From: Gymnopus androsaceus JB14
Lineage: Eukaryota; Basidiomycota; Agaricomycetes; Agaricales; Omphalotaceae
DNA length: 64,000 nt
Assembly (NCBI GenBank): GCA_009733575.1
Contig: ML769445.1
Coordinates: forward strand, 207,196-271,195
Direction: 5' to 3'
The notes beneath the pieces were generated by a model. That model was not told the DNA's origin, did no database searches, and was given only the letters and a program-made list of their open reading frames with translations. Shown in pieces: positions 5,727 to 63,678 of this stretch. Both the position numbers and the translations under genes were made by a program. Position 1 is the first letter of the stretch. Each line of letters starts with the position of its first letter.

Positions 5727-7675
5727 ATGCATCACCTGTCGACCACTTCTTCTAGGTCTCTCCGCCGCGCAGCTGCTAAAGCCGCAAAGCCCTCGTTAAC
5801 TCGTGGCGCTCACAAGGAGATCAAGTTTTCGAACGAGGGCAGAGCCAGCATTTTGAAGGGTGTCGACGTCCTCGCCAACGCGGTCAGTGTTACACTAGGC
5901 CCCAAAGGTATTATCCTTCTCTTAAAAAGTTTTGCGAATGCTCAATATGATTTCCAGGTCGTAATGTCATCATTGAGCAGTCGTTTGGTGGCCCAAAAAT
6001 TACCAAGGGTGCGTAGAAAATGTTTGTGCATTGAGATACTACTGACGCGACAACTTTGCAGACGGTGTCACTGTAGCAAAGTCCATTACACTACAAGACA
6101 AGTTTGAAAATCTTGGTGCACGGTAAGTATTTTGACACGTAAGGTCTGAACTATGACTAACTTGTGTTCAGTCTTGTCCAAGACGTGGCTCAAAAGACCA
6201 ATGAAATAGCTGGTGACGGCACAACTACTGCTACTGTCCTTGCACGCGCCATTTATTCCGAAGGTGTCAAAAATGTTGCAGCAGGATGCAATCCCATGGA
6301 CCTTCGTCGCGGTTCTCAGGCTGCTGTCGAACGTGTCGTTGAATTCCTAGCTTCGCAGACCAAAACGATCACAACCACTGCCGAGATTGCCCAGGTCGCA
6401 ACCATTTCAGCAAACGGTGATACTCACGTCGGTAACCTCATTGCCCAGGCCATGGAAAAGGTCGGGAAGGAAGGTGTGATCACCGTGAAGGAGGGAAAAA
6501 CCATTGAAGACGAGATTGAAGTAACGGAAGGCATGCGCTTCGACCGTGGATTTATTTCACCCTACTTCATCACCGATGTGAAGGGGCAAAAGGTCGAATT
6601 CGAGAAACCTCTTATTCTTCTTTCTGAGAAGAAGATTTCGGCCCTACAGGATATTCTTCCTGCTCTCGAGCTTGCAGCTCAATCGCGTCGTCCTCTGCTC
6701 ATCATTGCCGAGGATATCGACGGTGAGGCTCTTGCTGCCTGTATCGTTAACAAGCTTCGTGGACAGCTTGCTGTTGCTGCTGTCAAAGCACCTGGCTTTG
6801 GTGACAACCGCAAGTCCATTCTTGGTGATCTTGCCATCCTCACTGGCGGTACCGTCTTCACCGACGAAATTGACATCAAACTCGACAAAGCCACCCCAGA
6901 CATGTTCGGTACCACTGGAAGCGTCACCGTCACCAAGGAGGATACCATCTTCCTCAACGGTGAGGGTTCCAAGGATGCTATCCAGGCTCGCTGCGAACAG
7001 CTCCGTGCCCTCGTCGCCGATCCTACTACCTCTGACTACGACCGTACCCGTCTCCAAGAGCGACTTGCCAAGCTCTCTGGTGGTGTCGCTGTCATCAAGG
7101 TCGGTGGCTCCAGTGAAGTCGAAGTCGGTGAAAAGAAGGACCGCTACGACGATGCTCTGAATGCCACTCGTGCTGCCGTCGAGGAAGGTATTCTTCCTGG
7201 AGGTGGTGTCGCTCTTCTCAAAGCATCCCTCATGCTTAGCACCACCTCTCCTTCTCCTTCTTCCTCCGCCTCACCCGTCTCTCCGAACGCCATCCCCATC
7301 CCTACCGCCAACTTTGACCAAGACCTTGGTGTTTCCATTATCCGCCGCGCCATCTCTGGTCCTTCCCGTGCCATCCTCAACAACGCTGGCGAGGAGTCTA
7401 GTGTTATCGTTGGCACTCTGCTCTCGACCTACGGTGCGCCTGACAAGTTTGCCTGGGGTTACGACGCCAGCAAGGGTGAATACGTTGACATGATTAAGGC
7501 TGGTATCGTTGACCCGCTAAAGGTCGTTCGAACTGCGCTAGTTGACGCAGCTGGTGTTGCGAGCTTGTTGACGACAAGCGAGTGCTGTGTAGTTGATGCC
7601 CCAGAAGAGAAAGCCGCTAACCCTATGGCAGGCATGGGAGGAATGGGAGGCATGGGCGGCATGGGTGGATTCTAA
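5727..7675 (+). CDS. hsp60: Mitochondrial chaperonin HSP60
   Basis: Group I chaperonin of the mitochondrial matrix; refolds imported proteins with HSP10. Four exons (5727-5907, 5958-6008, 6062-6122, 6172-7675) sum to 1,797 nt, or 598 aa, normal for the family. The N-terminus ([20 protein letters not shown]) is basic and Ser-rich, as expected of a mitochondrial presequence. It is followed by the GroEL core: [37 protein letters not shown], the ATP-site [11 protein letters not shown], and the tail [14 protein letters not shown] typical of GroEL/HSP60. The first intron splits the Gly of GPKGRNV. Two heat-shock elements precede the gene. A Ser/Pro-rich insert ([19 protein letters not shown]) near residue 460 is longer than usual but in frame. 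The call is very secure. Confidence 0.98.
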
Positions 7676-46842: not shown

Positions 46843-47141
46843 TCATCCGCGAATTATTCTTCCCGGTTCTTGAGATTGTTTGCTCGTGGCTGTCGCGTAA
46901 GCATTGAGGGAGGGGATCAACCCAGAGGAAAGCATGGCCTGAGGCTCCGGTGGCATCTCAGAGATCATCGCAGCTCTGGCGAAAGAGAGGTCGCACTCTA
47001 ATTGAGGGATTTCTTCTTCCTTCTGTGAGACTGACGAATCGTGATCGACTTCTAAACCGCGCAATTCTTCGATAATTCCTTTCCAAGGTTGAGCGGGTTC
47101 GTAAAATTGGCTCTACCTGAACACTCTGCTAGTTCTTCCAT
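46843..47141 (-). CDS. Truncated third member of the CCCH-related family
   Basis: ATG 47141 (MEELAECS) splices over a ~45-nt intron (gtagagcc to ggaaag) to GIIEELRGLEVDHDSSVSQK, EEEIPQLECDLSFARAAMIS, stop 46843-46845. The short first exon ending in CS/FS, a following intron that also begins gta-a/g-ag, and the upstream flank all match the two neighbours, but there is no D-x-W unit and no zinc finger. It is about 85 aa. Probably a decayed tandem copy; it may not make a working protein. Confidence 0.5.
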
Positions 47142-47390
47142 CCGGCATTCGTATCGTCTTCCATATGTGTTTCTAAGGTTTTGGTTAAGCGAACAGCCTG
47201 GAAACAGATGAAAGCGAGATCTAGCTGAGTAAAACGTGCTGATCCACGAGAAAAGAAGACAACGGGATGCAAACGCGTCAAGAGCAAGTTAGGTGAAGTC
47301 ACGCAGAATGGGCATCTATGATCAAATCGCTGCAAATATTGGTCCAAGATTCCGCGTTTTGATACTGGTACAAATTCAAAAGCGAGTCAT

Positions 47391-47819
47391 TCAATGCTCC
47401 ATGGCATCTCTTTTCCCAGTCTTGATCAGTTCATTCCTAGATAAATTTGGTAAGAGAGCTGAGCAAAGAACCAAAAGAAGCATTATTTGCTCACCTCAAC
47501 TGCACACTGAATTCATCCTCAATATCATCATCGTCCCAATTATCCTCCCATCAGTTTATCTCCGCCAGATTTAGCAGCACCAGGAGCAGCTCCTCCAAGA
47601 TGAGCTAAATCTGTCTGAGAATCGTCCCAGTCTATCGATTGCCAGTGAGCTTTTGATTATTCAAAGTGGATTTTAGTACACACCAGCAGCGGCAAATTCC
47701 TCAAATTCGTCATCCTCCTCTAGAACACCAAGGTGAGGACGAGCTTCCTGCTTCTTCTCCTCTACTTTGGAGGGTTTCTCTTGCGTTTTTGGCTTGGAAC
47801 TCGAAGCGGTCGTAGACAT
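47391..47819 (-). pseudogene. sem1: Sem1/Dss1, proteasome lid subunit (frame broken by one base)
   Basis: Sem1/Dss1 is a small acidic protein of the 19S proteasome lid, the TREX-2 complex and BRCA2 complexes. ATG 47819; the N-terminal exon ends EEDDEFEEFAAA, and the second begins DWDDSQTDLAHLGGAAPGAA then KSGGDKL. Here the family continues WEDNWDDDDIEDEFSVQLR. The sequence has all those codons, but one extra base (T at 47551 on the plus strand) puts a stop soon after KLMGG. The third exon (NELIKTGKRDAMEH, stop 47391-47393) is also intact in the downstream frame. No GT-AG intron removes the extra base. Either a consensus error or a true lesion that would leave a ~70-aa protein without its second acidic block. 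Confidence 0.85.
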
Positions 47820-48111
47820 TGTGGACGCGTCAGTCAAGAAGTTTTAGCGCGCGGCTTAGCAACAAGCGCTTTTTCTAACAGATGGGCGCTTTTTTCGCTC
47901 ATCTCATTTGCTACTTAGTACTTAATCTTATCATTTTAATTTTGCAGAATAATGCTGGCAAACGATTCATAGCCATGATAAGTACTAGAATACCCTATTG
48001 GCACGCAAAACGGCTTATCATTTCAAGTCCCCAAACAAATTCATACAGGTCTGTCAGTCGGTCATAAAAACGTCGTAAAAAAGCAGTAACTTTTTGTTCG
48101 TCGTTAGGCTC

Positions 48112-50908
48112 TCATACGGGATTTTCTTCCTTCACGTCCTCAACAGGCTCACCTAGGTCTACCGCAGTGGACACCTCAGATCCAAGACCCATCTGAGAGG
48201 TATCGTACCCGTTCTCCTCCAGGTACTCGCGGAACTGAGAGATAATTATTTATTAGTTCGGGCAAGTATAAATGTAAGTTCAAATGCTACCTTTGCGTCC
48301 TCCGCTACCATACCATCGGCATACATGGGTTCAATAAAGAAAAAGGTGACCGTAGCGCTCAAGATTGCCAAAGCGCTTGCAATCCAGAACGGGCCAGTGT
48401 TTCCTCTGGTACTCGAGTCACCGCCAAAGTCGATAATTATTTGCGGGAAGGCTAAAAATCGTCAGCTCGTATGATACAATACCATCGCCTTCGGACATAC
48501 CCCAGGTACCGACGAATGCACCGACTTTTCCTACTGCAGCAGCTATTCCGTAGTATTGTCCACGGACAGCGGTCGCACTAGTTTTCGCAGCAAGCAAACC
48601 GATACAATTGCCAGGACCTGACGAGAAAATCAGTGAACGGACATGAGGGTCAGAAAATATGAGTCAGAAAATACTCACCAAGTTCTCCGAAGCTCAGGAA
48701 AATACCATACAGCACAGCGAAAGCGGCGATGTGATTCGTCAATCTGTATGTTTCCTCCGTTAACGGTACATTAACTCGAAAATATTGCGTACGTTTTGTA
48801 AAGTGCACTCATTATGAAACCTATTGCCATTGAGATTCATGAATTATGATCTCCTTTGAAAGAAATATGCTCACCTATCACAGCTTGGCAAAGCAAGCCC
48901 AAGATCTGCGATTGATGAATTGTCATCAATCATTGGAAAGCATCACGGTAGTCTACTCACCAAGGTGTACTTTGGCCCCAAGTAATCAATGATGAACGCT
49001 CCGCCAATGGTTCCTAGCACATAGTTAGAAAGGGATCAGAAGGAATTTTTGAGTACAGCAGCCTACCTGGCATATAGAACAGGTTGATCACCACATTCCA
49101 TCCTAGAATCTTGTGAGCTTGGAGACCATCATTAAAATAGTAATTGCTGTACCGAGGACAGTGGTCAACGCATCCGAATTTCCTGATTTTGAAGTTCAGA
49201 TTCAATACTCGGGCTGTTGTAAGAAGAAGAAAGCAACCTGTAATACTGGAGGATCAGATCAATATATTTATTTACCGGAAAAGAATATAGAAACTCTCAC
49301 TTGTCCACTACCGTGCCAGAGTATATGCCAAACTGCCAAAACCAAAGATGAGATCACATACGGATTGCCTTCCAGCATGAAGTCTACACACCGGATACCT
49401 ATCCCAGAATCATCAGTCAATCAACAGCTGAGAGATTACCAGCGCACGTACACTATAAAGTCGTACAGAAACCACGTAAAGGAGACTGCAGCCAACGACT
49501 TCCAATAACGGCGAATTACCAGCCTATATGGAATCTTGGCATGTTTCATCGAGTCCTTCTGGAATCTTTCCGGCTCTCTCATCCCAATTCGCCACACAAA
49601 GACCGCCATAGCAGGGAAAAATCCCAATCCCAGAGACATTCGCCATACAGCTCGGAGGTGGTGTTCACCAAAGCTTGAGGAAAAAGCTCCAATCAACATA
49701 CAATACGAGCGATGGTTGAGCACATACATCCAAAAACATACGAAGGCACAAAGTTGCGATTACAAATCCAAAGTCAATCATACAGTCTGATATCAAAAGA
49801 TGAGAGCTACAAAAGAACAACATCAGCAAAACCTGGGTGTACTGACAGAGCTGATAGCTCTGTCCAGCACTCATAGCACTCATAGCAAGGTCCCATCTAT
49901 CCAGAGCTATGGATTGCTATGGGCTACTATGAGCTGCTATGGATGTCCAAGGACAATATAAATCTGCAGGCTCATAGGAGCTCATAGCTACCCATATGGG
50001 TAGCAGTTCATAGCAGTTCATAGTTCTGTGGCTGCTATGGATTGCTATGCTTGCTATGACAACTATGGCAATTATCCAGGTTTTGCTGATGATAAAGTAG
50101 AGGACATACTTGTGGCCAGAGCAAACCATCTGTGTTGTGACATCTTGGCAATATCCTTCTCTTCTGTCCGCTCTGAAGCAGCAACTGAACCACAAGGGTA
50201 CTCTGCACCGACACCAATGCCCAAAAGAAACCTAAAGGAAAATGAATTAGGTAGTATCACTGACTCAACCATCTGACTTACCGAAATACACTCAGCATAG
50301 CTACTAAACCAGGAAGGCTGCCATGGGCCCCCTCAGACGCAGCGCAGAGCAGAGAGAAGAGCGCCACGATACCAGTGGCAGTCATCATTCCAAATTTTCT
50401 TCCGACCTTATCCGACAAGTAACCTTGTTTAGGATAGAATAAGTACGCCGCAAGTCGCAGACTTGACAATACTAACCGAATAACAGCATTCCGACGACCG
50501 TTCCAGCAAAGACCATACTGCTGATAACGTTGGTATACTTATGAGCGGTGAGTTCACCGTCATAGATTCGATTCAAGACTAGTTTTGATACTCGATGGTC
50601 AAGAGCTTTTCGTTTGATAACATTGTGTCACGTACTAAGGTTGACTGTCAAGCGCACCGATTAGTGACTTCTGAATGGATCCTTAGAGGATGTTACGCAC
50701 CATCGCTGACAACCCCGTTGGCGTAGCCTAATGAAAAGCACCACTGTTAGTCCCATGGAAAACCTGCGATTACAACTGCATCTACCGTCTGAAAACAAGG
50801 CCGTGCCACATCTATCGTGAGTGGATTAACTGGTCGTGCAACATGAAATGTACAGGGAACATACGCAAAGATGGGAGAAACACTCTTGAACGTCTGGAGT
50901 AGTCCCAT
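48112..50908 (-). CDS. MFS transporter, GIT1-like, copy B
   Basis: Paralogue of the transporter at 31203-33897. ATG 50908 ([15 protein letters not shown]), then [38 protein letters not shown] (MFS motif A), [111 protein letters not shown] segment, and a C-terminal [20 protein letters not shown], stop 48112-48114. The intron after ALAT (about 49,796-50,110) is enlarged by a 271-bp foldback element but keeps good splice sites. A 55-nt intron (gtatgt to ttggag) is needed to join IATLCL to [11 protein letters not shown]; with it the frame is clean. Likely functional phosphate, glycerophosphodiester or related anion uptake at the plasma membrane. Confidence 0.85.
49821..50091. mobile_element. 271-bp MITE-like foldback element
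   Basis: Perfect 16-bp terminal inverted repeats: catcagcaaaacctgg at 49821-49836 and its complement at 50076-50091. The interior is built from many ctatgg/ctcatag words in both orientations around a perfect 18-bp palindrome (gctacccatatgggtagc, 49987-50004), so it can fold into a long imperfect hairpin. No coding capacity. It sits in an intron of transporter B. I see no exact target-site duplication. Confidence 0.7.
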
Positions 50909-53094: not shown

Positions 53095-55102
53095 ATGACA
53101 CTGTTCCTCCCTCTGGAGGATTCAGCGCCCTTGTCTTCAATACCATCTTTTGTTATCAAACCAAGTGAGCCGAAAGCCCAAGTTACAAAAGTAATAAAGG
53201 CAATTCTGAAAGCCAAGCGGATCGTAGTAATATGTGGTGAGTATTCTTGTAGTCGTCTTCTAGCAAAGCATTCTCAATTCTCCTCCTCTTCCAGGCGCTG
53301 GGATATCTGTTAAAGCAGGCATTCCCGATTTCAGGTCTTCCGAGGGTCTTTTCCAGACGTTGAAGCGGGATAACCCTAAAGATGGCTTGTCGTCAGGGAG
53401 AGATTTGTTCGACGCATCTGTTTTTAATGTGAGGAGTCCTTGAGTAATGTCCCTGCCCGAATTTGATTGAAAACTAACTCCAAAATCTATGTAGAGTGAA
53501 CAGAGAACAATGCAGTTTTTTCAAATGATCTCAAAACTTTGTAGTCTTTCTGAAACCGCAGAACCAACATCATTTCATCATATCCTACGGTCTCTCGATA
53601 CTAATGGTCGACTTCTACGCGTTTATACTCAAAATATCGATGCCATTGAAGCGAAAACCGGACTTTCATTCGGTGTCCCAGAATTCCAAGGCAAGCGAAG
53701 CAAACTGCGTAGTAGCACGTTTCAGGAGGTCGGTGACCCCGGCCCATCTACAACTGCTAATAGAATGCCACGATGCATCCCTCTACACGGAACTCTTCAA
53801 CTAGTCCATTGTCAGATCTGCACCCACTCATTCCCCCTTGCCGATTATCTCCCGTCCTTTGCGTCAGGTGTTCCCCCGGAATGCCCCGAGTGCACGTCTA
53901 TGGAACGTACGAGACAGCTTGTCGGCAAGCGTGCACGCGGAGTCGGGAAGCTACGACCTAGTGTGGTGCTTTACAATGAGGCGCACAAGGACGGTGAAGG
54001 TGTGGGTGATATAGTACAGAAAGATCTCATTGGGAGCAAGGGGAAAAGCGGAGCTGATTTAATTTTGGTGGTGGGTACGTCTCTTAGGGTGCCAGGTACG
54101 AAGAGAATGGTTCGCGAATTTAGTCGAGCCGTCCATTCGAGAGGAACGAGCTCGAAAGAAAGCACCCCAGGAGGTGACGAACAGGCGTCGCAGCAGCAGC
54201 AACAGCAGCCGTTAAAAGCGATCTACCTGAATATGGACTTTCCTGTCCCAACGAGAGAGTGGGAAGGAGTGTTTGATGCATGGATACAGGGCGATGCGCA
54301 GACCTTTGCTGAGATGCTGCAAGAGGAGCTAAAGAAGGAAATTCGAGCCAAGGAACTCGCTGCTGAAAGGAGGAAAAAAAGAGAGGAAGAGATAGCTCTA
54401 GCTGCGCTTACTGGCACTCCTTTGGTGAAGCAAAAGATGAAATCGAAAGCAGAGCCGAAAGACGGTCCACCTGTGGCGAAACGCAAAGTTCCAGCGGCGG
54501 GAGACTCTGATATGAAACGAAGGAAGCTTGTGGTAGAAATACCTCCTTTTCCGGAGAGTGTCAGGCGATCCTATCATGGCTTGGGAAGGCAGCCTCCTTC
54601 TCCAGCTTCACCGTCTCATCTGACACTACGTATTCCTGCTCGCTCCACGCCTCCAGCGAAGCTTCCTGCTTTACTAGCTCCGTCGACACCAAGTAAAGTT
54701 TCCACGACTCTCGGTCGTCCGCCACCCACGCCTGAATACACGCCCGGGCGAAACAACAGTTCTCCTCGATTCCGGACTCTCACCTCGACGCATCACGATC
54801 AACGCCAGCGGACGCCTCCGTCCGAGTCGACCAGCTCCATGTCCAGCCTGACTACGAGCGAGGACGAAGGAAGCGGAAGCGATTCTGATATCCAGGTTGA
54901 TGTCGAAGATAGTTCTCGCTATCATAACAAAAATGGGACATGGCAGGGCGCGTATTATTTGCCTTTTAAAACGCTCTCTTTACCGGCGTCGGGAAACGTA
55001 TATGGAGACGACGCATCTATGATGGTTGTGGATGATTTTCGAGGTCGATTAGGCACGTCGTGTTTAAGGACTACACAAGTTGAAGTTGGCGAGGGTGGAT
55101 GA
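53095..55102 (+). CDS. Sirtuin (SIR2-family NAD-dependent deacetylase), Hst3/Hst4-like
   Basis: NAD-dependent protein deacetylase. Exons 53095-53236, 53295-53428 and 53495-55102 give 627 aa. Sirtuin core: CGAGISVKAGIPDFRSSEGL (rebuilt across intron 1), YTQNIDAIEAKTGL, the catalytic histidine IPLHGTLQLVHC, a Cys4 zinc module (CQIC then CPEC), RPSVVLYNEAHKD, LILVVGTSLRVPGTKRM and IYLNMDFPVPTREWEGVFDA. The zinc module and the NMDFP segment resemble Hst3/Hst4 (histone H3 K56 deacetylases), so a chromatin role is my inference. A ~250-residue tail follows: a charged coiled coil (LQEELKKEIRAKELAAERRK), a basic segment, then Pro/Ser-rich disorder. A Q-run (SQQQQQQP) lies in the catalytic domain. Confidence 0.92.
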
Positions 55103-55345: not shown

Positions 55346-56522
55346 ATGACGGCGAAGGAGGAACTGCGCCAGTTTCTTATGCAGCCGCGGCCGCCACCGC
55401 CGCCTCCAACAGCAGACAAAGATCCTCTCTACATACCTCCCGTTCCTGATCCTCCCACCATACCTCCACATCTTGGCAGCCTCCCGCCTGAGGATTACAT
55501 CGATCTGGCGTTGGAATACATCGACCAATATACGTTTTCTAGGGATTTTATCAAGTACACACCAATCACTCTTAAACCGTCCCGGTATACTCCGTTGCCC
55601 GAATGGCAGGAAAAAGCGCGACTTTATCTTCGAGCTTGTGTCAATGTTGACAGGAGTTGCCTAGCACCCATCGCGGATTCTTCTTATAGCCCTGCCTACC
55701 AGAAACAGCGGTTTGTTCATGAATTCGTCTTCAAACAGAGATGGGCATTGGAGGAACTCGCGTCAAAAATGATGAGTTTAGTGGAAATTGGTGTGTTCTT
55801 TTGTGAATCATCTTAGCGGCGTCTGATGTTTGGGCAGTGAGATCGGTGACCCGAACCCCATCGGCTGTGTCAACGCCAATGAGTACAGGAACTGAAACGA
55901 AACGAAACGTGGTTACTCAGGTATCTGCGTGTCCCAAGTCCTGGATGTTGGATCTCACTCCGTCTAGGTATGTGAACGCGATGTGAGATGTCGAATGACT
56001 GGAGTCGCAAGTGCAAACTCGGAATATACGGACGAAGAAATAATAATGCAGATAGAAGACTCAGAAGAGGCCCAAGCCTTCCTCGAGGTAACTCACGGTA
56101 TTCCTTTCTCCACGGGAGCAACTGTTCGTCAATTTTCATCCACATATTGTGTTAGCTCTAACCATCCATTAGACCTTCAATCTCGTATACATGCTTACCG
56201 GTATCTCAGTGGAAAACTGGGTAGCCGATTCCGTTCAGAATGCGCTCTTACTCCAGCAGGGTCTACACTCACTATTTGCGGCATTTCAACTATACCTCGA
56301 ATGGAGTAGCGATGACTCTGAAGTAACATCGTGTTCTCTTTCCATGTGCTGTTAATGACCATTTTACCCAGATATTCATTCGACGGAGACGCACACCTCC
56401 ATTAGCCAACCCTATTGCCGTTCTGCGCACCGTCGTCAATGATGCAGGCTGGACCTGTGCTGTCCCAGGTATGCTTTTTGATAGGTGCCTTCGGCCGCGA
56501 CAGAACACCAATATTCCTGACA
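55346..56522 (+). pseudogene. Unrecognised host gene, 5' part (split by the transposon)
   Basis: Exons 55346-55790, 55838-55920, 55968-56097, 56210-56322 and the start of a fifth at 56372. The N-terminus is Pro-rich (LMQPRPPPPPPTADKDPLYI), followed by PEDYIDLALEYIDQYTFSRD, RYTPLPEWQEKARLYLRACV, EYTDEEIIMQIEDSEEAQAF, ENWVADSVQNALLLQQGLHS and LANPIAVLRTVVNDAGWTCA. All joins use GT-AG introns and keep phase. Exon 5 runs open to 56522, where the transposon begins; the rest resumes at 63458. Without the element the gene would encode about 380 aa. I do not recognise the family; no signal peptide or membrane helix is evident. Confidence 0.75.
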
Positions 56523-56538
56523 TTAGGGATGTTTCGGG
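56523..56538 (+). repeat. Left terminal inverted repeat of transposon
   Basis: ttagggatgtttcggg, preceded by the TGACA duplication at 56518-56522. It matches the inverted right end at 15 of 16 positions; only the outermost base differs. Confidence 0.82.
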
Positions 56539-56540
56539 CC

Positions 56541-56577
56541 CAAGGGGCGTTCAAAAAGTAGATTCACTAAACCGACT
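56541..56577 (+). repeat. Left subterminal inverted segment
   Basis: Contains caaggggcgttca and tagattcactaaaccgact. The inverted counterpart is at 63251-63287, with a few mismatches in a 4-base middle stretch. It lies 2 bp inside the left terminal repeat but about 150 bp inside the right one. Confidence 0.8.
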
Positions 56578-56953
56578 ACCCCCAGGTAGTACTACTACTT
56601 TGGGTCCCGGGGTCCTGAAAAACACAGCCACTTCACTAATTACACCTCTTGAGCACATCTTTTTACTGAGCCAATAAAGTAACTTCGGACTTGTTCCCAT
56701 TCAAATTATTATGCAAATTTGTGTTAATTTGCCTCTTTGGATTTTTTTTCTGGGCTGAGATATGTTTGAGAGAGCCTCGCCGAAGTGCGAGAACTGAAAG
56801 AACCAGTTTAGCGCCCATCCGACTTCTCGCATCTACAGCGATGACCGGCCTCCGCAAGCTGCGCAAAATCCGATGCCCAAAGCACTCGGTGTGACAGAGT
56901 GATGATGCGCTATCACTCACGCGTCTCGCGTCTACTCTGTTGAATCTGCTACA
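56578..56953. other. Transposon left flank upstream of its main gene
   Basis: About 380 bp of non-coding element sequence, presumably the promoter. It contains a tagtactactac/ggggtcctg block that also appears, in the same orientation, near 63209-63235 at the right end, and one atgcaaatttg word like the right-end motif. Confidence 0.5.
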
Positions 56954-59900
56954 ATGAACAACTCTCGGGACTCAGAGTGGCCGGAAATTGATTGGGATGA
57001 AGATCTTGACAAGTTGATTCCTGTTCCTTCCACTCCTTTTGGCTCCAGTTCATCTGGACAGTCCATTTTCAGTGCTCAGAATAGCAGTACCGGCTCAATA
57101 GATGCTTCTTGGACAGGACTCGATAGTTACTCTCATGATTTGGGTGCTGAATCAAGTGTATCTATACAACTCAAGTGTGTTTTATTCCTACGTTAATCTT
57201 TCTATCAGCTAACACGTCAATGAGCAGATGATCAACTATGGCCTTGAGTACAATCTCGACATCCTAATCGATGGCTTGCCGAGCTATAGCTCTTCAGTCT
57301 CTACTCCTACGCAGGTACAGTGAACAAGATTTATTGTATGTAATGCTTCTGAACAAACCCAAAATTGGCAGATCAATAGTCTACCACCGACAGCTTCATC
57401 AACTTGTACTCCATCCACTTTTTTGGTGGATAATTCTCTTACTACGCCACGCTACACACCATCCAACTCACCTCCTGAACATGGTACCAATCAGGTGCTG
57501 TTCGACACATCCTCGCAATCATCCAATACAGAACCCAGTACTCCGGCAACCACTGCTGCTTTCACACCCCGTCGACGCAAGGCCGTGCATTCTAAGCGCT
57601 CCATTTCGCGACACGCATCTCCCCACAAATCGCAAATCTGTCCACTTTGCCATACGCGTATTTTTAGCAGTCATAGCTATCATCTTATGCGTCACCAAAG
57701 CGGGAAGGAATGTAAACACGCACAGAAATCAATTGGTCGTATTTCGCGACTCAAACACGCCTCGGCTGCTCGTTCCACCTCTTTTTCCACATCCTTTCTA
57801 CCAAAACCTGCACCTTCACGTGTTCCGCGGACTGAATCCGATAGTGCTATACTGTCCCTGCCATTACCTTCCAATAATATCGATTCCATGCCTTCTACTA
57901 CTGGTGCTGAACTGGATGATGATACTCAGTCACTTGCTCTTTCATCACGTTCAAGCTCCCCAGACCCGTTCATAAGAGCATCATCTGCTCCCACAGAAGA
58001 GAGTACTGATTGTCATGACTTCGATCGCGAGAATCTGACATCCCAAAGTGCACCTGCCACCGTTTCGATTGGAAATGGGTGCAGTGGTGTTCCGATCTCT
58101 TGGACCGAAGACTTTATGAGATCTTTTCCTCTATGGATTTTGAATGATCCACATGGAAAGCTCACGTACCGCCTGGAGCGTATTGAATACCCTGAAATTC
58201 AAGGTACTGCAGGAGCAATCGGATGGGTGAAATCAGTTGCCTGTACTGGTCATGGGCCCACTTGTGGTTTTTGTCAGGCCATATCCCACCCTCGAGCTAT
58301 CACTGCAGCTGATTTGCGTGCTCAGAGTGATGCTCTTTCGGCAAACATTCCATACCAGCATCTCACTCAACCTCAACTCCTTAAAGTCTTGACTGAGAAG
58401 AGTGAAGTAATACGGCAACTCCGAGCCAAGGTAAATGGTTTTGTTCCTCCAATATCTTTGAGTTTTTATTTATATTGATTTCACAGGACCGCTCCTCGAG
58501 GAGTAAACTTGTAACTGCTGCCCGCAGGTTAGATGACAGTAAGCGTTTTCGTGCAGCTATAATCGAGAACGATGTACCCCGTCTCCAGCAGCTAGTCATG
58601 CGAATGTTCAAAGCTGGGCGGAGCGTAAACGCGATGGTGGCACAGATCAAAAAAGCAGCTGCGGGCTTGTATCACGCCAAACAGTTCAATGAAAAGGATC
58701 GGGATTTGGCCCAACTATTGCGGCATATCAGCGGGGGCTCAGGTTTGTTTGCTGCTTCACATGGCTGTGGTCTACCTTCGCTCTCAACAGCTAAACGCGT
58801 CACACCGACTCCTCCAATTACGCCCTCACCATCTACTCCTCGTTTAGACGAGATTATAGCAAATCTCCGTCTCAGTTATCCACCTCTTAAACCGGGAGAA
58901 AGTGTTGAGCGAGCAGGACAGGTTCTTATGATGGATGGAATTGCGACCACTGCTCGGATTCGACGTCTTCGTAAGACTGACGAAATGGTTGGACTATGTC
59001 GAGAGCACACGGGTGGGCTGAATCTTTCGATGGACTCCTTTGATTCAATCCTCAAAGTACGTGATGCAGTTCACGGCGATCATCCAACATGTCATTACGG
59101 AAAGGAGACTACTGTTGCAGTATTCGCGCCGTTTCAATCTACCAACTATTATCCTCGTCCAGCACTGCTCTCACCGACATGCAAAGCGGAACGTGCCCCG
59201 GATTTTGCTATTTTTGTCGCGCTACTCATCCAAGGTTACGGAATTGTCGCAGAAAAAATATATGGCGATCTCTGGGTCATCTCAACCGATGGCGATGCTG
59301 TATTCCGCTTAGGTTGTAATCAGCTCTGTTTGGTTCAGGAGCTTCCTCAAAATCATCCACTGTACGAGTTGTTATGTGGAATGCCAGGCTTGAATCTCAC
59401 GTGTGGCGAGAATTTTATTACATACAGCTCTGACTTCAAGCATAACAATAAACGTATGTCTTTTTATGTTGTTCGAAGCCCAAACTAATGATAGTTATGC
59501 TCCTAGGTTGTGCTACGCTGTGTCGCAGTAATCAGGGAATTATGATAGGAAATCATATAATCAACGCCGAGATGCTTTCTCGACTACTACTACTACTCCC
59601 TGGGCAAACCAAAGAGTCCGTTGAGGGACTACTTGACCCCGACGATCACCAAAATGTCCCGCGCGCTATAAAACTCCTTATTGCAATCCACCGTCTCTCC
59701 GATGTCAATACCTCAGGTCTAAATCCCTTGGACAAAGATCTCTTGCGCTACATTGCAGTCCTCGGTGCTCTCTTCGATGCGTTTATCCAACCGTTCATGC
59801 AACAAGAGTGGTCGCTTTACGAGCAGCTCAAATCCCTTGCTATCGCAGGCCATCTGCTGTTTGGACTTTACCGCTCGCATACGACTTCTTTCATGAGCAA

Positions 59901-62149
59901 CCAGCTCTATCACGACATGCACAGCGTAATCAAAAGCATCTATTTCTGTGTCGCAAAACAGAAGCTTCTTGATAACACGAAGGATATTTACATTTTTCAG
60001 AATGCCTCTGACCGCATCGAAAGTCTTTTTCGAGAGACTCGTACCCGAGACCACAATACAAACCCTGATGTTTTGGGGCTATCGCAGAATGTAGCTATGG
60101 CTACTGATCGGGCGAAGATATTCGAGAGAAGACCAAACATGAAGCAATCATCCCGACGTCTCTCATATGATGGAAGCGAGGGCATTGACCATGTCAATCC
60201 AGGTTATTTCACCGGTGATCTCTGTGTTGGTCATGTTGAACTTCCCAAGCCTTTCCGAGATGCCAAGTTTGCAGCTTCCGAAGTGTTGACCAAAGCTGGA
60301 CTCAGTTTTGACTTTGACGGGATTTTGGCTGAGGAAGGAGTGGATTTCTTGCGTCCTTTTGGCGGGAATGTATATCCTGGTCTTTCCCTTGATCATGACC
60401 GTTCCATCCCTGATGACTCCTTGGATTCCTCCAACCGAACTACCTCAAGTGCCCCAGCTTCCGCTTCCGATGTTAAGGCCGAATTGGAAGACAGTGAAAC
60501 GGATAACCTCCTTCATCTGGACGACTTCCTTGGTCCTGATCCTGATCACCCCGACACTATTACCACATCCGAAAACATTCCCAGCGATAGTTTGCATGTT
60601 ACACAGGACGACGGAACTGTCATCCAGATGAACAAGCTATTATTGCTTTCGACAATGTTCAAAGATGGAAAGCTGTCGAAGGACCGTATTCGACGTGCAC
60701 GTGGTTTCACTATGCCTACTAAAGTGGAGGAAGACGATGATATCCCACTTGGCGATGATACACTGCAGGTTCGGGATGTCGCAGTATGTCCAGTCCGTCT
60801 TGGAGACACGATTGCACTTGCAGTGTTAACCGTAACAGGATTGGAGAGGAAGGGAAAGAAGCATTTGATTTCTGTAGGGGAATCGGAGCTTCGAGATTCA
60901 AAAATGGATGTTTTCGTGAGTGGGCAGATTCTAAACCTATGCGAGTATCCCTTCGAGAATATTCCTTCTGAAGGCGATTCCGAACCTTCATTCACCACTC
61001 GTTGGGCATGGACAGGATCATTTGCAAGTTTCGCTCCATTGAAATCATTGCAGTCTCCAATAGGATCTACGGTACCCGAAGATGGATCCCGAAAGTCTCA
61101 TGTCATCCGCATCCCTGGCCGATTTGTCTTTGCAGTCTGTCCTGGCACAACACAACTCCTCTTAGATGATACTAGGCCATTCGCACAGGACTTGCGGTTG
61201 AATGGCCTGGACGTAACTTCCTGGATCTCGCACGATGTTCTCATTGATATAAAGGAAACCGAATTCGGAAGTATGAAAGCAGAAGAATTTGGCATCCTTC
61301 CTAGACTCGGGGCTTCGGAAACACTACCCTATAGGGACTCGGAGGGTATGCTCGGTTTCTGTATTGATACCATTTATTTCGCAAGCTCATATCTTTGGTA
61401 GGTCGCAAATCCTTTATTCTTGAAGAGCCTACACAAGAACTGGTTAGAAAGAAGAACGCATCTAGCGAGAAGCTCGATTGCTATCAGTGTGGTGCCGCTA
61501 TTGATGTGTCACTATTGCGAAGCCATGTAGGAGCTCATATCTTACTCGCAATGACAGGGGTTATTGAACCGAACCTACAAGAACCAGTACGTTCATATGC
61601 TTTTATGGAGTTTATTTACTCGTAATGTTTATATCTGTATAGATTTCTAACCCAGGTCACGCATGCGGTTTCTGTGGACGGTCCTGCGATGGACTGGAGA
61701 TGAAAGTTCTTGCACGTGAGAGGCAGTACCGCTTCTCATGTCCCCGAAAGCAAACATTTAAATATGTTTCTGCATTGAAACCGACAAAACGCCAACCTTC
61801 AACCAATGTCCCCGTATACTGTACTCTATGCCCTCTCCCATTAAATTCAAGTTCACCTCCAACGTTCTGGAAATATTCGATATTCGCTCACATCCGTGAG
61901 ATGCATCCCCATCATTGGGACATCAACACTCGAAAGCCATTCAATCTGCCAAAGGAGATGGATACTGTCAAGATTGACGAACTGGAGGTTGAAATGATAC
62001 TGAAGGCGGCGCATGTTGGTTCGAGGTTACCCATTAGTACTTCTATTGTTTCTCTTCCGTTTACTATATCCACCACATCATCTAATACCTCAAAGCGCAG
62101 CCAGCCTCCAGTAGATAGAGGAGGTAACAAGCGTCAAAAAGAAAAGTAA
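56954..62149 (+). CDS. Transposase-like protein with N- and C-terminal zinc motifs
   Basis: Large multi-exon protein of a family I recall as repeated in Agaricomycete genomes. ATG 56954 (MNNSRDSEWPEIDWDEDLDK). Zinc motif near 57635-57715: CPLCHTRIFSSHSYHLMRHQ. Candidate acidic catalytic residues in DDE order: MMDGIATTARIRR (58930s), ISTDGDAVFRLGCNQL (59280s), and DRIESLFRETRTR (60010s), the last like the E-helix of THAP9/P-type and related transposases; this assignment is inference. Between them are PLYELLCGMPGLNLTCGENF and YLSGKLG-unrelated helical parts (LLRYIAVLGALFDAFIQPFM, LAIAGHLLFGLYRSHTTSFM). The C-terminus has CYQCGAAIDVSLLRSHVGAH, CGFCGRSCDG and CTLCPLPLNSSSPPTFWKYS then AHIREMHPHHW. 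Introns fall near 57174, 58433, 59456, 61346 and 61590. Reading is open throughout, so the element may be young. Confidence 0.78.
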
Positions 62150-62339
62150 TTCGTAGCATACTCCTGTTTAGTTTAGCTAGTATACATGGTCCACAGAATC
62201 GATTGACTTTAACACCTCCTGACGTGGTTTAAGCACCTTGTCAGGATTTCGTACCACTTCTCAAAATTGGCCGATTATTCATTCGGTGTTTAAGATCGTC
62301 TTAAAAACATATTGCTGTGAGTCTAAGTGTTCCAAAAAA

Positions 62340-63078
62340 TCAAACTAAATCTATTTTATCAGTCTCCAATGACTCCAGAGGATACCGCTTATACATCCTT
62401 CTCATGTTCTCTCGATACTCTCTTCCGCGCGAGCCACTCCTTCCGGCATCAACCAAATTTGCTGCAAGAAGCTGCATTTCATGAAGAAGCTTTGGGCGAT
62501 CCGTCTCCTTCAAAGCCTCCATCAATCCTTCACCAGCTCTAACCATAGCTTGACGTAGAATGAAAAGTTCTCGCTGTGCAGCATCAGCGCGTATGATGGA
62601 AGTGTCGCGTTCATGAAGTGCATTGGTAACTTGACGTTTTATCTCACTGAGAAAGTCGCCACGATGAAGCAGGCGGTCGATCTCTTCTTGCTTGACATGG
62701 GTTGGGTACCTAAGATTCATGTCGGGAGGCCCAGCTTATTACTCAATGAGCAAGTATTAAGAAAATGATAATATTGGCACGTACCAGCTTCTTCAAACTG
62801 CTCTAGACTGCAGCTGGCAATCTCCCGAATTAAGGTCAGAGATTTTGCGAGTCCGCGACGTGTGTAAACGCTATTTGACCTGAGACAAGAATATTATTTA
62901 GTAAACAAGAGACTTGACAAGAACAATACAAAACTTACTTGAATTCATCGCCCCAGCCATCCAAATCATCCGGTGTGACTAGAGTATCACCTGGTTGGTA
63001 TTTTGTTGCAGCTGCAACTTGCTGAGCATCAAAGCTATCTTCATCCAAGAATCGCGACAGGAGGAGTTCGTAGTCCAT
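62340..63078 (-). CDS. Second transposon gene, helical protein of unknown function
   Basis: Exons 63078-62939, 62879-62785 and about 62730-62340 give roughly 210 aa. Starts MDYELLLSRFLDEDSFDAQQ, then TLVTPDDLDGWGDEFKSNSV, YTRRGLAKSLTLIREIASCS and LEQFEEAAGPPDMNLRYPTH. It ends in long charged helices (EEIDRLLHRGDFLSEIKRQV, FILRQAMVRAGEGLMEALKE, RGREYRENMRRMYKRYPLES). No catalytic or zinc motif. It converges on the transposase-like gene with under 200 bp between their stops and lies inside both inverted segments, so I take it as element-encoded, perhaps a partner or regulator of transposition. A captured host gene is possible. Confidence 0.7.
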
Positions 63079-63250
63079 GTAGAAACACGTCAGGTCACAA
63101 GAGTGACAACTTCTTTACCCTTTCGGAGGCCGTCCAGTCGGGATGTGGGCTGTGCTCATCACAAAAATCAGGTGGATATCAAGCGGATAATATTATAAGC
63201 GAGGAAAAGTAGTAGGGTACTCCTGGGGTCCTGGCATTCACTTTTTCCAG

Positions 63251-63287
63251 AGTCGGTTTAGTGAATCTACGTCCTGAACGCCCCTTG
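63251..63287 (-). repeat. Right subterminal inverted segment
   Basis: Inverted counterpart of 56541-56577: agtcggtttagtgaatcta and cgccccttg are present on the plus strand. It is separated from the right terminal repeat by the ~140-bp AT-rich motif array. Confidence 0.8.
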
Positions 63288-63295
63288 TTCGGGCC

Positions 63296-63434
63296 GGCAA
63301 ATTTTGCCAGTGGCAGACGCAAAATTTGCAAAGTTTTATGGCAAATTTTGTATAGCATGACGTAGTGCAAACTCTTTGGAGTGCGGCCAAATTTGCTGGA
63401 AATTACGGCAAAATTTGGAGCAGCAAAATTTGCC
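63296..63434. repeat. Array of GGCAAATTTTGCC-like motifs at right end
   Basis: Six variants of one near-palindrome in about 140 bp, both orientations: 63296-63308, 63319-63331, 63340-63350, 63385-63396, 63407-63418 and 63423-63434. Repeated subterminal words of this sort are often transposase-binding sites. No such array is visible at the left end. Confidence 0.75.
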
Positions 63435-63436
63435 GC

Positions 63437-63452
63437 CCCGAAACATCCCTAT
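63437..63452 (-). repeat. Right terminal inverted repeat of transposon
   Basis: cccgaaacatccctat, the inverse of the left end except for the last base, followed directly by TGACA at 63453-63457. Confidence 0.82.
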
Positions 63453-63457
63453 TGACA

Positions 63458-63678
63458 AGAAATATTTCATTCTTCACAAATTCATTGGCGATGTTGCATG
63501 GATGTGCGGTAGTGCAGAACCTCTATCTGATGAAGAAGAAGAAGACAATAAAGTACTCAGTAACGACAACTTTGATGTTGTTGTCCAAAAGCTGAACTCC
63601 CCTTTCATTGACTACTTTTTACGGGAGGGCACACTTGGCAAAGTCTGGGTTCCGAAGGAAGTTGGATTTTATTCATAA
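63458..63678 (+). pseudogene. Unrecognised host gene, 3' part after the transposon
   Basis: Continuation of exon 5 of the gene at 55346-56522. It reads KKYFILHKFIGDVAWMCGSA, EPLSDEEEEDNKVLSNDNFD, VVVQKLNSPFIDYFLREGTL and GKVWVPKEVGFYS, stop ending 63678. The 151 nt of exon 5 left of the element and these 221 nt sum to 372, divisible by three, and the codon at the join is in phase (PD then KK). An acidic stretch (SDEEEEDN) is the only compositional feature. Confidence 0.75.

Follow-up and report, generated by a model that had tools for sequence, protein, structure and literature searches.

Two probable nested DNA transposons, a P-like element within a miniature inverted-repeat element, in a predicted exon of Gymnopus androsaceus

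Introduction

Is a predicted coding exon of the basidiomycete Gymnopus androsaceus JB14 interrupted by one unusual DNA transposon or by two? The window analysed here is the whole stretch of 64,000 nucleotides at positions 207,196 to 271,195 of contig ML769445.1 (271,195 bases long, in the 83-megabase assembly GCA_009733575.1), and coordinates are those of the window unless another contig is named. A first-pass annotation had described a single 6.9-kilobase (kb) element with TAGGGATG ends, a 5-base-pair (bp) target duplication and a possible place in an unnamed family. Our analysis points instead to two nested DNA transposons within the exon, a 171-bp miniature inverted-repeat transposable element (MITE) with ATT as its 3-bp duplication and, nested in this MITE, a P-like element of 6,747 bp with an 8-bp duplication of its own, and we put the probability of this reading at about 0.88.

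Results

The features that suggested a single element are all present in the sequence. The TTAGGGATGTTTCGGG end begins at 56523 and its inverted partner lies at 63437-63452 (15 of 16 letters matching), TGACA stands at 56518-56522 and again at 63453-63457, and the frame of the host is preserved when 56523-63457 is removed. However, when the right end was searched against the genome, with 40 of 92 candidates scored, 63288-63457 proved to be a separate repeat found at many places. Among the loci examined, the copy at 63288-63450 has seven further counterparts at 93.3% to 99.4% identity, matching its nearest relative at 162 of 163 positions. With at most two mismatches allowed, the 16-base end was counted 71 + 70 times, as against 20 + 18 times for a control pattern. 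A short inverted-repeat pair also lies at 63288-63307 and 63423-63442. Moreover, a second inverted-repeat pair of 37 nucleotides (92% identity; 56541-56577 on the plus strand and 63251-63287 on the minus strand) is found within the supposed element, and TTCGGGCC directly bounds it on both sides (56533-56540 and 63288-63295).

The outer MITE, on the plus strand, would consist of a left piece of 16 bp (AGGGATGTTTCGGGCC, 56525-56540) with the ends common to other copies, and a right piece of 163 bp (63288-63450), the first 8 bp of which repeat the last 8 bp of the left piece; its length is 171 bp when this repeat is counted once. The ATT copies at 56522-56524 and 63451-63453 would be its duplication, as judged from the sequence, the host paralogs and other copies of the repeat. 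The inner element would then occupy 56541-63287 on the plus strand, delimited by its inverted ends, the TTCGGGCC duplication and its short copies elsewhere.

The outer duplication was examined at 42 end pairs from the loci examined, with the window's own pair excluded and with some pairs that had been wrongly joined by the script kept in. By length, 24 of the 42 measure 170-172 bp and seven about 560-595 bp. When the ends are read as AGGG...CCCT, an exact 3-bp duplication is seen in 34/42, compared to 10.7 expected from shuffled right flanks (AAT 14, ATT 13, ACT 4 and three others). The same ends do recur elsewhere in the genome, as the first-pass annotation had anticipated, but not with different 5-bp duplications, which were seen in none of the 42 other copies in the register that it used. 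In a GGG...CCC register, a 5-bp match appears in 3/42, arising from TAxTA symmetry, and TA is present on both sides in 34/42, so that TA cannot be dismissed as the duplication by counts alone. It was rejected because the match extends to the following base at either flank (AxT) and because six empty paralogs have space for one AxT codon, not for AxTAxT.

These paralogs also suggest how the site looked before insertion. The right host flank resembles seven other genome places (70-87% identity), and the six paralogs that reach the junction were aligned to the window flanks joined with a single ATT. All six are uninterrupted and carry ATT, ATC or GTT exactly at the junction (for example, NIPDIEKKYF and NIPDIDKKYF). 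Because 6/6 paralogous exons keep this codon, the sequence before insertion was most likely CCT GAC ATT GAC AAG; the apparent 5-bp duplication would have arisen because TGACA was already present twice in it, and the PDKK join proposed earlier is one codon short. The predicted host exon has a left part ending with ATT (56372-56524), beyond which the six paralogs run on into the sequence found at 63454, and a right part reaching to the stop codon (63454-63678), both open and on the plus strand. This predicted frame is interrupted at the insertion, with the flanking duplications intact; the earlier claim that DNA transposon material breaks an exon stands for this predicted coding exon. An allelic empty site was not found in the assembly, where the search returned the window and paralogs of at most 87% identity only.

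It is a serious possibility, although one to which we give somewhat less than even odds, that the exon belongs to a gene family present in several copies, perhaps one in decay, and that the insertion was therefore of little cost to the host. The seven similar places fit this idea, as do the change of frame shortly past the junction in two of the six junction copies (L094 and L095) and the lack of homologous upstream exon sequence in L093. However, the window copy keeps an open frame to either side of the insertion.

The inner element has a history of its own. Its left 334 bp match nine further genome places at 90-96% identity, and these relatives are elements of 467-477 bp with the same ends, every one of them flanked by an exact 8-bp duplication (9/9, all different). 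As the sequence that they share with the inner element comprises approximately 334 bp at its start and 82 bp at its end, they look like internally deleted relatives. The inverted ends and flanking TGACA words could be accounted for by one 6.9-kb element, but the right end is a stand-alone repeat, the inner ends have both their own duplication and independent copies, and the empty paralogs retain one ATT-type codon. A single element with a 5-bp duplication is thus ruled out by the independent copies of each part, and we give it practically no weight.

The predicted transposase gene of the inner element (56954-62149, plus strand) has seven predicted exons (56954-57157, 57228-57314, 57372-58430, 58487-59453, 59507-61345, 61402-61586 and 61643-62149). 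Predicted splicing yields 1,615 amino acids without an internal stop, which agrees with the first-pass view of an open element gene, and its C-terminal 1,116 amino acids are also found in the gene model of database record P0002 (100% identity). Our first splice model was discarded because its wrong first donor introduced stops; a donor 17 bp upstream gives the open frame. In a genome search with the best candidates scored, the DNA of the transposase core was found at one place only, and protein-level matches numbered 29 further places at 27-34% identity, 22 of them with stops. A predicted second gene of three exons on the opposite strand (62340-63078, minus strand; about 209 amino acids, from open frames and splice prediction) has seven genome relatives at 39-47% identity and, in Pfam, no match with an E value of 0.01 or less. 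None of these seven lies on a contig that carries a listed transposase relative, so this gene may travel with other elements too.

A protein search with the transposase returned 22 clusters including the window's own, 21 of them named hypothetical protein and the named species being Agaricomycetes. When the alignment of these 22 served as the query, 38 clusters were returned, including 25 new ones; a transposase domain was seen in none, and TPR-type Pfam entries in one. Over both searches the Agaricomycete family comes to 47 clusters, and rust proteins were absent from the matches of either. A protein search of a plasmid collection gave no match.

The predicted fold of the inner transposase is closest to that of the P element, and the predicted structure contains a split RNase H fold with a helical insertion domain, as in 6p5a/6pe2. 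The sequence carries a D/D/E triad in which the second D is followed by a [C/D](2)H motif. D101, D219, D267xxH270 and E445 are invariant in 22/22 proteins and align with D230, D303, D339xxH342 and E531 of P; in the full-length transposase, the predicted catalytic residues, placed by alignment, are D600 (codon 58934-58936), D718 (59288-59290), the DxxH motif D766-H769 (59432-59443) and E944 (60019-60021), all on the plus strand. In a survey of 46 sequences (the 47 clusters minus P0016), these positions are kept in 42, 44, 44/44 and 44, the remainder being gaps except for one G. Core identity to the P element is approximately 14-15%. Zinc-finger-like spacings occur at transposase residues 187, 1412 and 1507, and no Pfam zinc finger was above the cut-off in the window exons.

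For the outer family, no autonomous partner was found; half of one 2.7-kb copy (locus L034) was examined, and it held no frame of more than 111 amino acids. This copy belongs to a 2.7-kb stretch with MITE ends at both sides on contig C141 of the assembly (G000; 46966-49706, half in L034), a possible longer member. Two outer-family copies of about 585 bp on contig C304 (64157-64743 and 75429-76013) have 14-bp flanks that are reverse complements of each other, and this pair therefore seems to sit in a large inverted duplication. Elsewhere in the window, ordinary host genes encode a Cpn60/TCP1 chaperonin (6164-7675, plus strand) and, upstream of the interrupted gene, a protein of the Sir2 family (53510-55102, plus strand), both recognised by Pfam.

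Discussion

What had looked like a candidate new superfamily becomes a clean nest, the order of which can be read from two duplications. The nesting suggests that the MITE reached the exon first and that the larger element later inserted into it, close to the left end of the MITE; the inner element would thus postdate an outer copy that differs from its nearest relative at 1 of 163 positions. Perfect duplications, open frames and this near-identical outer copy favour the recent movement proposed in the first-pass annotation. This support is indirect and falls short of proof.

Most likely, the inner element moves by cut-and-paste: the transposase would pair the 37-bp ends, its predicted RNase H-type active site (D600, D718 and E944) would cut them, and the ends would be joined 8 bp apart on the target, with repair giving the 8-bp duplication. 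The zinc-finger-like motifs at both ends of the protein would bind DNA, as the THAP domain does in animals, and the nine short copies were probably moved by transposase supplied in trans.

Several observations weigh against a nest with a P-like inner element. The 3-bp outer duplication is missing in 8 of the 42 pairs, and some of these eight look like script mis-pairs. No Pfam transposase model, P-type included, was matched at E up to 1 by any of the 22 proteins; this holds for PF21787, PF21788 and PF21789, which true P proteins do carry, and the window exons gave no Pfam transposase match either. A sequence-profile search of the PDB returned no relevant chain. THAP went undetected at E up to 1 in 22/22 proteins and in the window exons, and the available part of PMC7776569 describes this domain as restricted to animals. 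The same source, as far as available, gives D528, K385, K400, V401, S409, F443, D444 and N447 as the contacts of P transposase with guanosine triphosphate (GTP). The animal set is incomplete in the inner transposase: V401, F443, D444 and D528 are kept, K400 is replaced by N, S409 by I and N447 by I, and K385 falls in a gap. Among the 46 sequences, the K400 position holds N, D or S and never K, and the N447 position has L, I, V or M in 43; the D of D444 is retained in 14 and the F of F443 in 8, and there is no S among the 43 residues listed at the S409 position. As modelled, the transposase likely lacks some GTP-contact residues; the alignment is at its least certain in the insertion domain, so independence from GTP is a prediction.

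Could the inner element be a hAT or KDZ/Zisupton transposon instead? Its CAAGGGG end resembles hAT ends, and a further point against a P-like assignment is that hAT and Zisupton also make 8-bp duplications, as stated in the accessible portion of PMC12730594. No KDZ transposase domain (Zisupton, Kyakuja, Dileera) was matched in Pfam at E up to 1, a comparison with Pfam models only; KDZ was absent from the fold list, and the fold result carries no weight against it. We consider a hAT or KDZ origin improbable. The signature, the fold and the 8-bp duplication with terminal inverted repeats (in the window and 9/9 short copies) agree with P; the THAP domain, some of the GTP pocket and the Pfam profiles do not. 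We therefore regard the inner transposase, as a prediction, as distantly related to P element transposase, a divergent variant beside the P superfamily.

This would supply a likely mechanism for an Agaricomycete protein family so far named, where named, only hypothetical or uncharacterized. A natural P-type enzyme with several GTP contacts replaced would also allow a comparative test of what GTP does in P transposition. More speculatively, and with considerable doubt, mushrooms might hold a whole P-type branch in which the catalytic core and insertion-domain fold were kept, THAP was swapped for zinc fingers at both ends and GTP became dispensable; the window copy may still be mobile and mobilise the short ones.

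Harbinger elements duplicate TWA. The outer MITE resembles PIF/Harbinger and CACTA/Plavaka MITEs in its short length, inverted ends and 3-bp duplication, and differs from the former in its ANT target and from Plavaka, with its TGT and CATCA ends (PMC12730594, in part), in its AGGGATG ends.

The inner element is like Drosophila P and the animal THAP9 P-type elements in its 8-bp duplications, terminal inverted repeats and internally deleted copies, and in its D/D/DxxH/E signature and split RNase H fold with an insertion domain (as set out in the available parts of PMC7776569 and PMC8230255). It differs in the length of its transposase (1,615 versus 751 amino acids for P), in having no detected THAP, zinc-finger-like motifs at both ends and a second gene, and in the three replaced GTP contacts with one more in a gap. 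In the open-licence literature, judged largely without full texts, no description of P elements in Agaricomycetes was recognised, and PMC12730594, in its accessible portion, treats superfamilies other than P. However, P elements are already known in Basidiomycota: the sections available of PMC3164196 report them with 8-bp duplications in the rusts Puccinia and Melampsora (P-1_PSt, P-1_MLP and P-2_MLP in Repbase, plus short P-N copies), and tables of PMC6136362 and PMC8594854, each available in part, use the RepeatMasker label P-Fungi. Set side by side by description, the rust elements and the inner element are both from Basidiomycota, both of the P superfamily or its vicinity, and both combine 8-bp duplications with autonomous and short copies.
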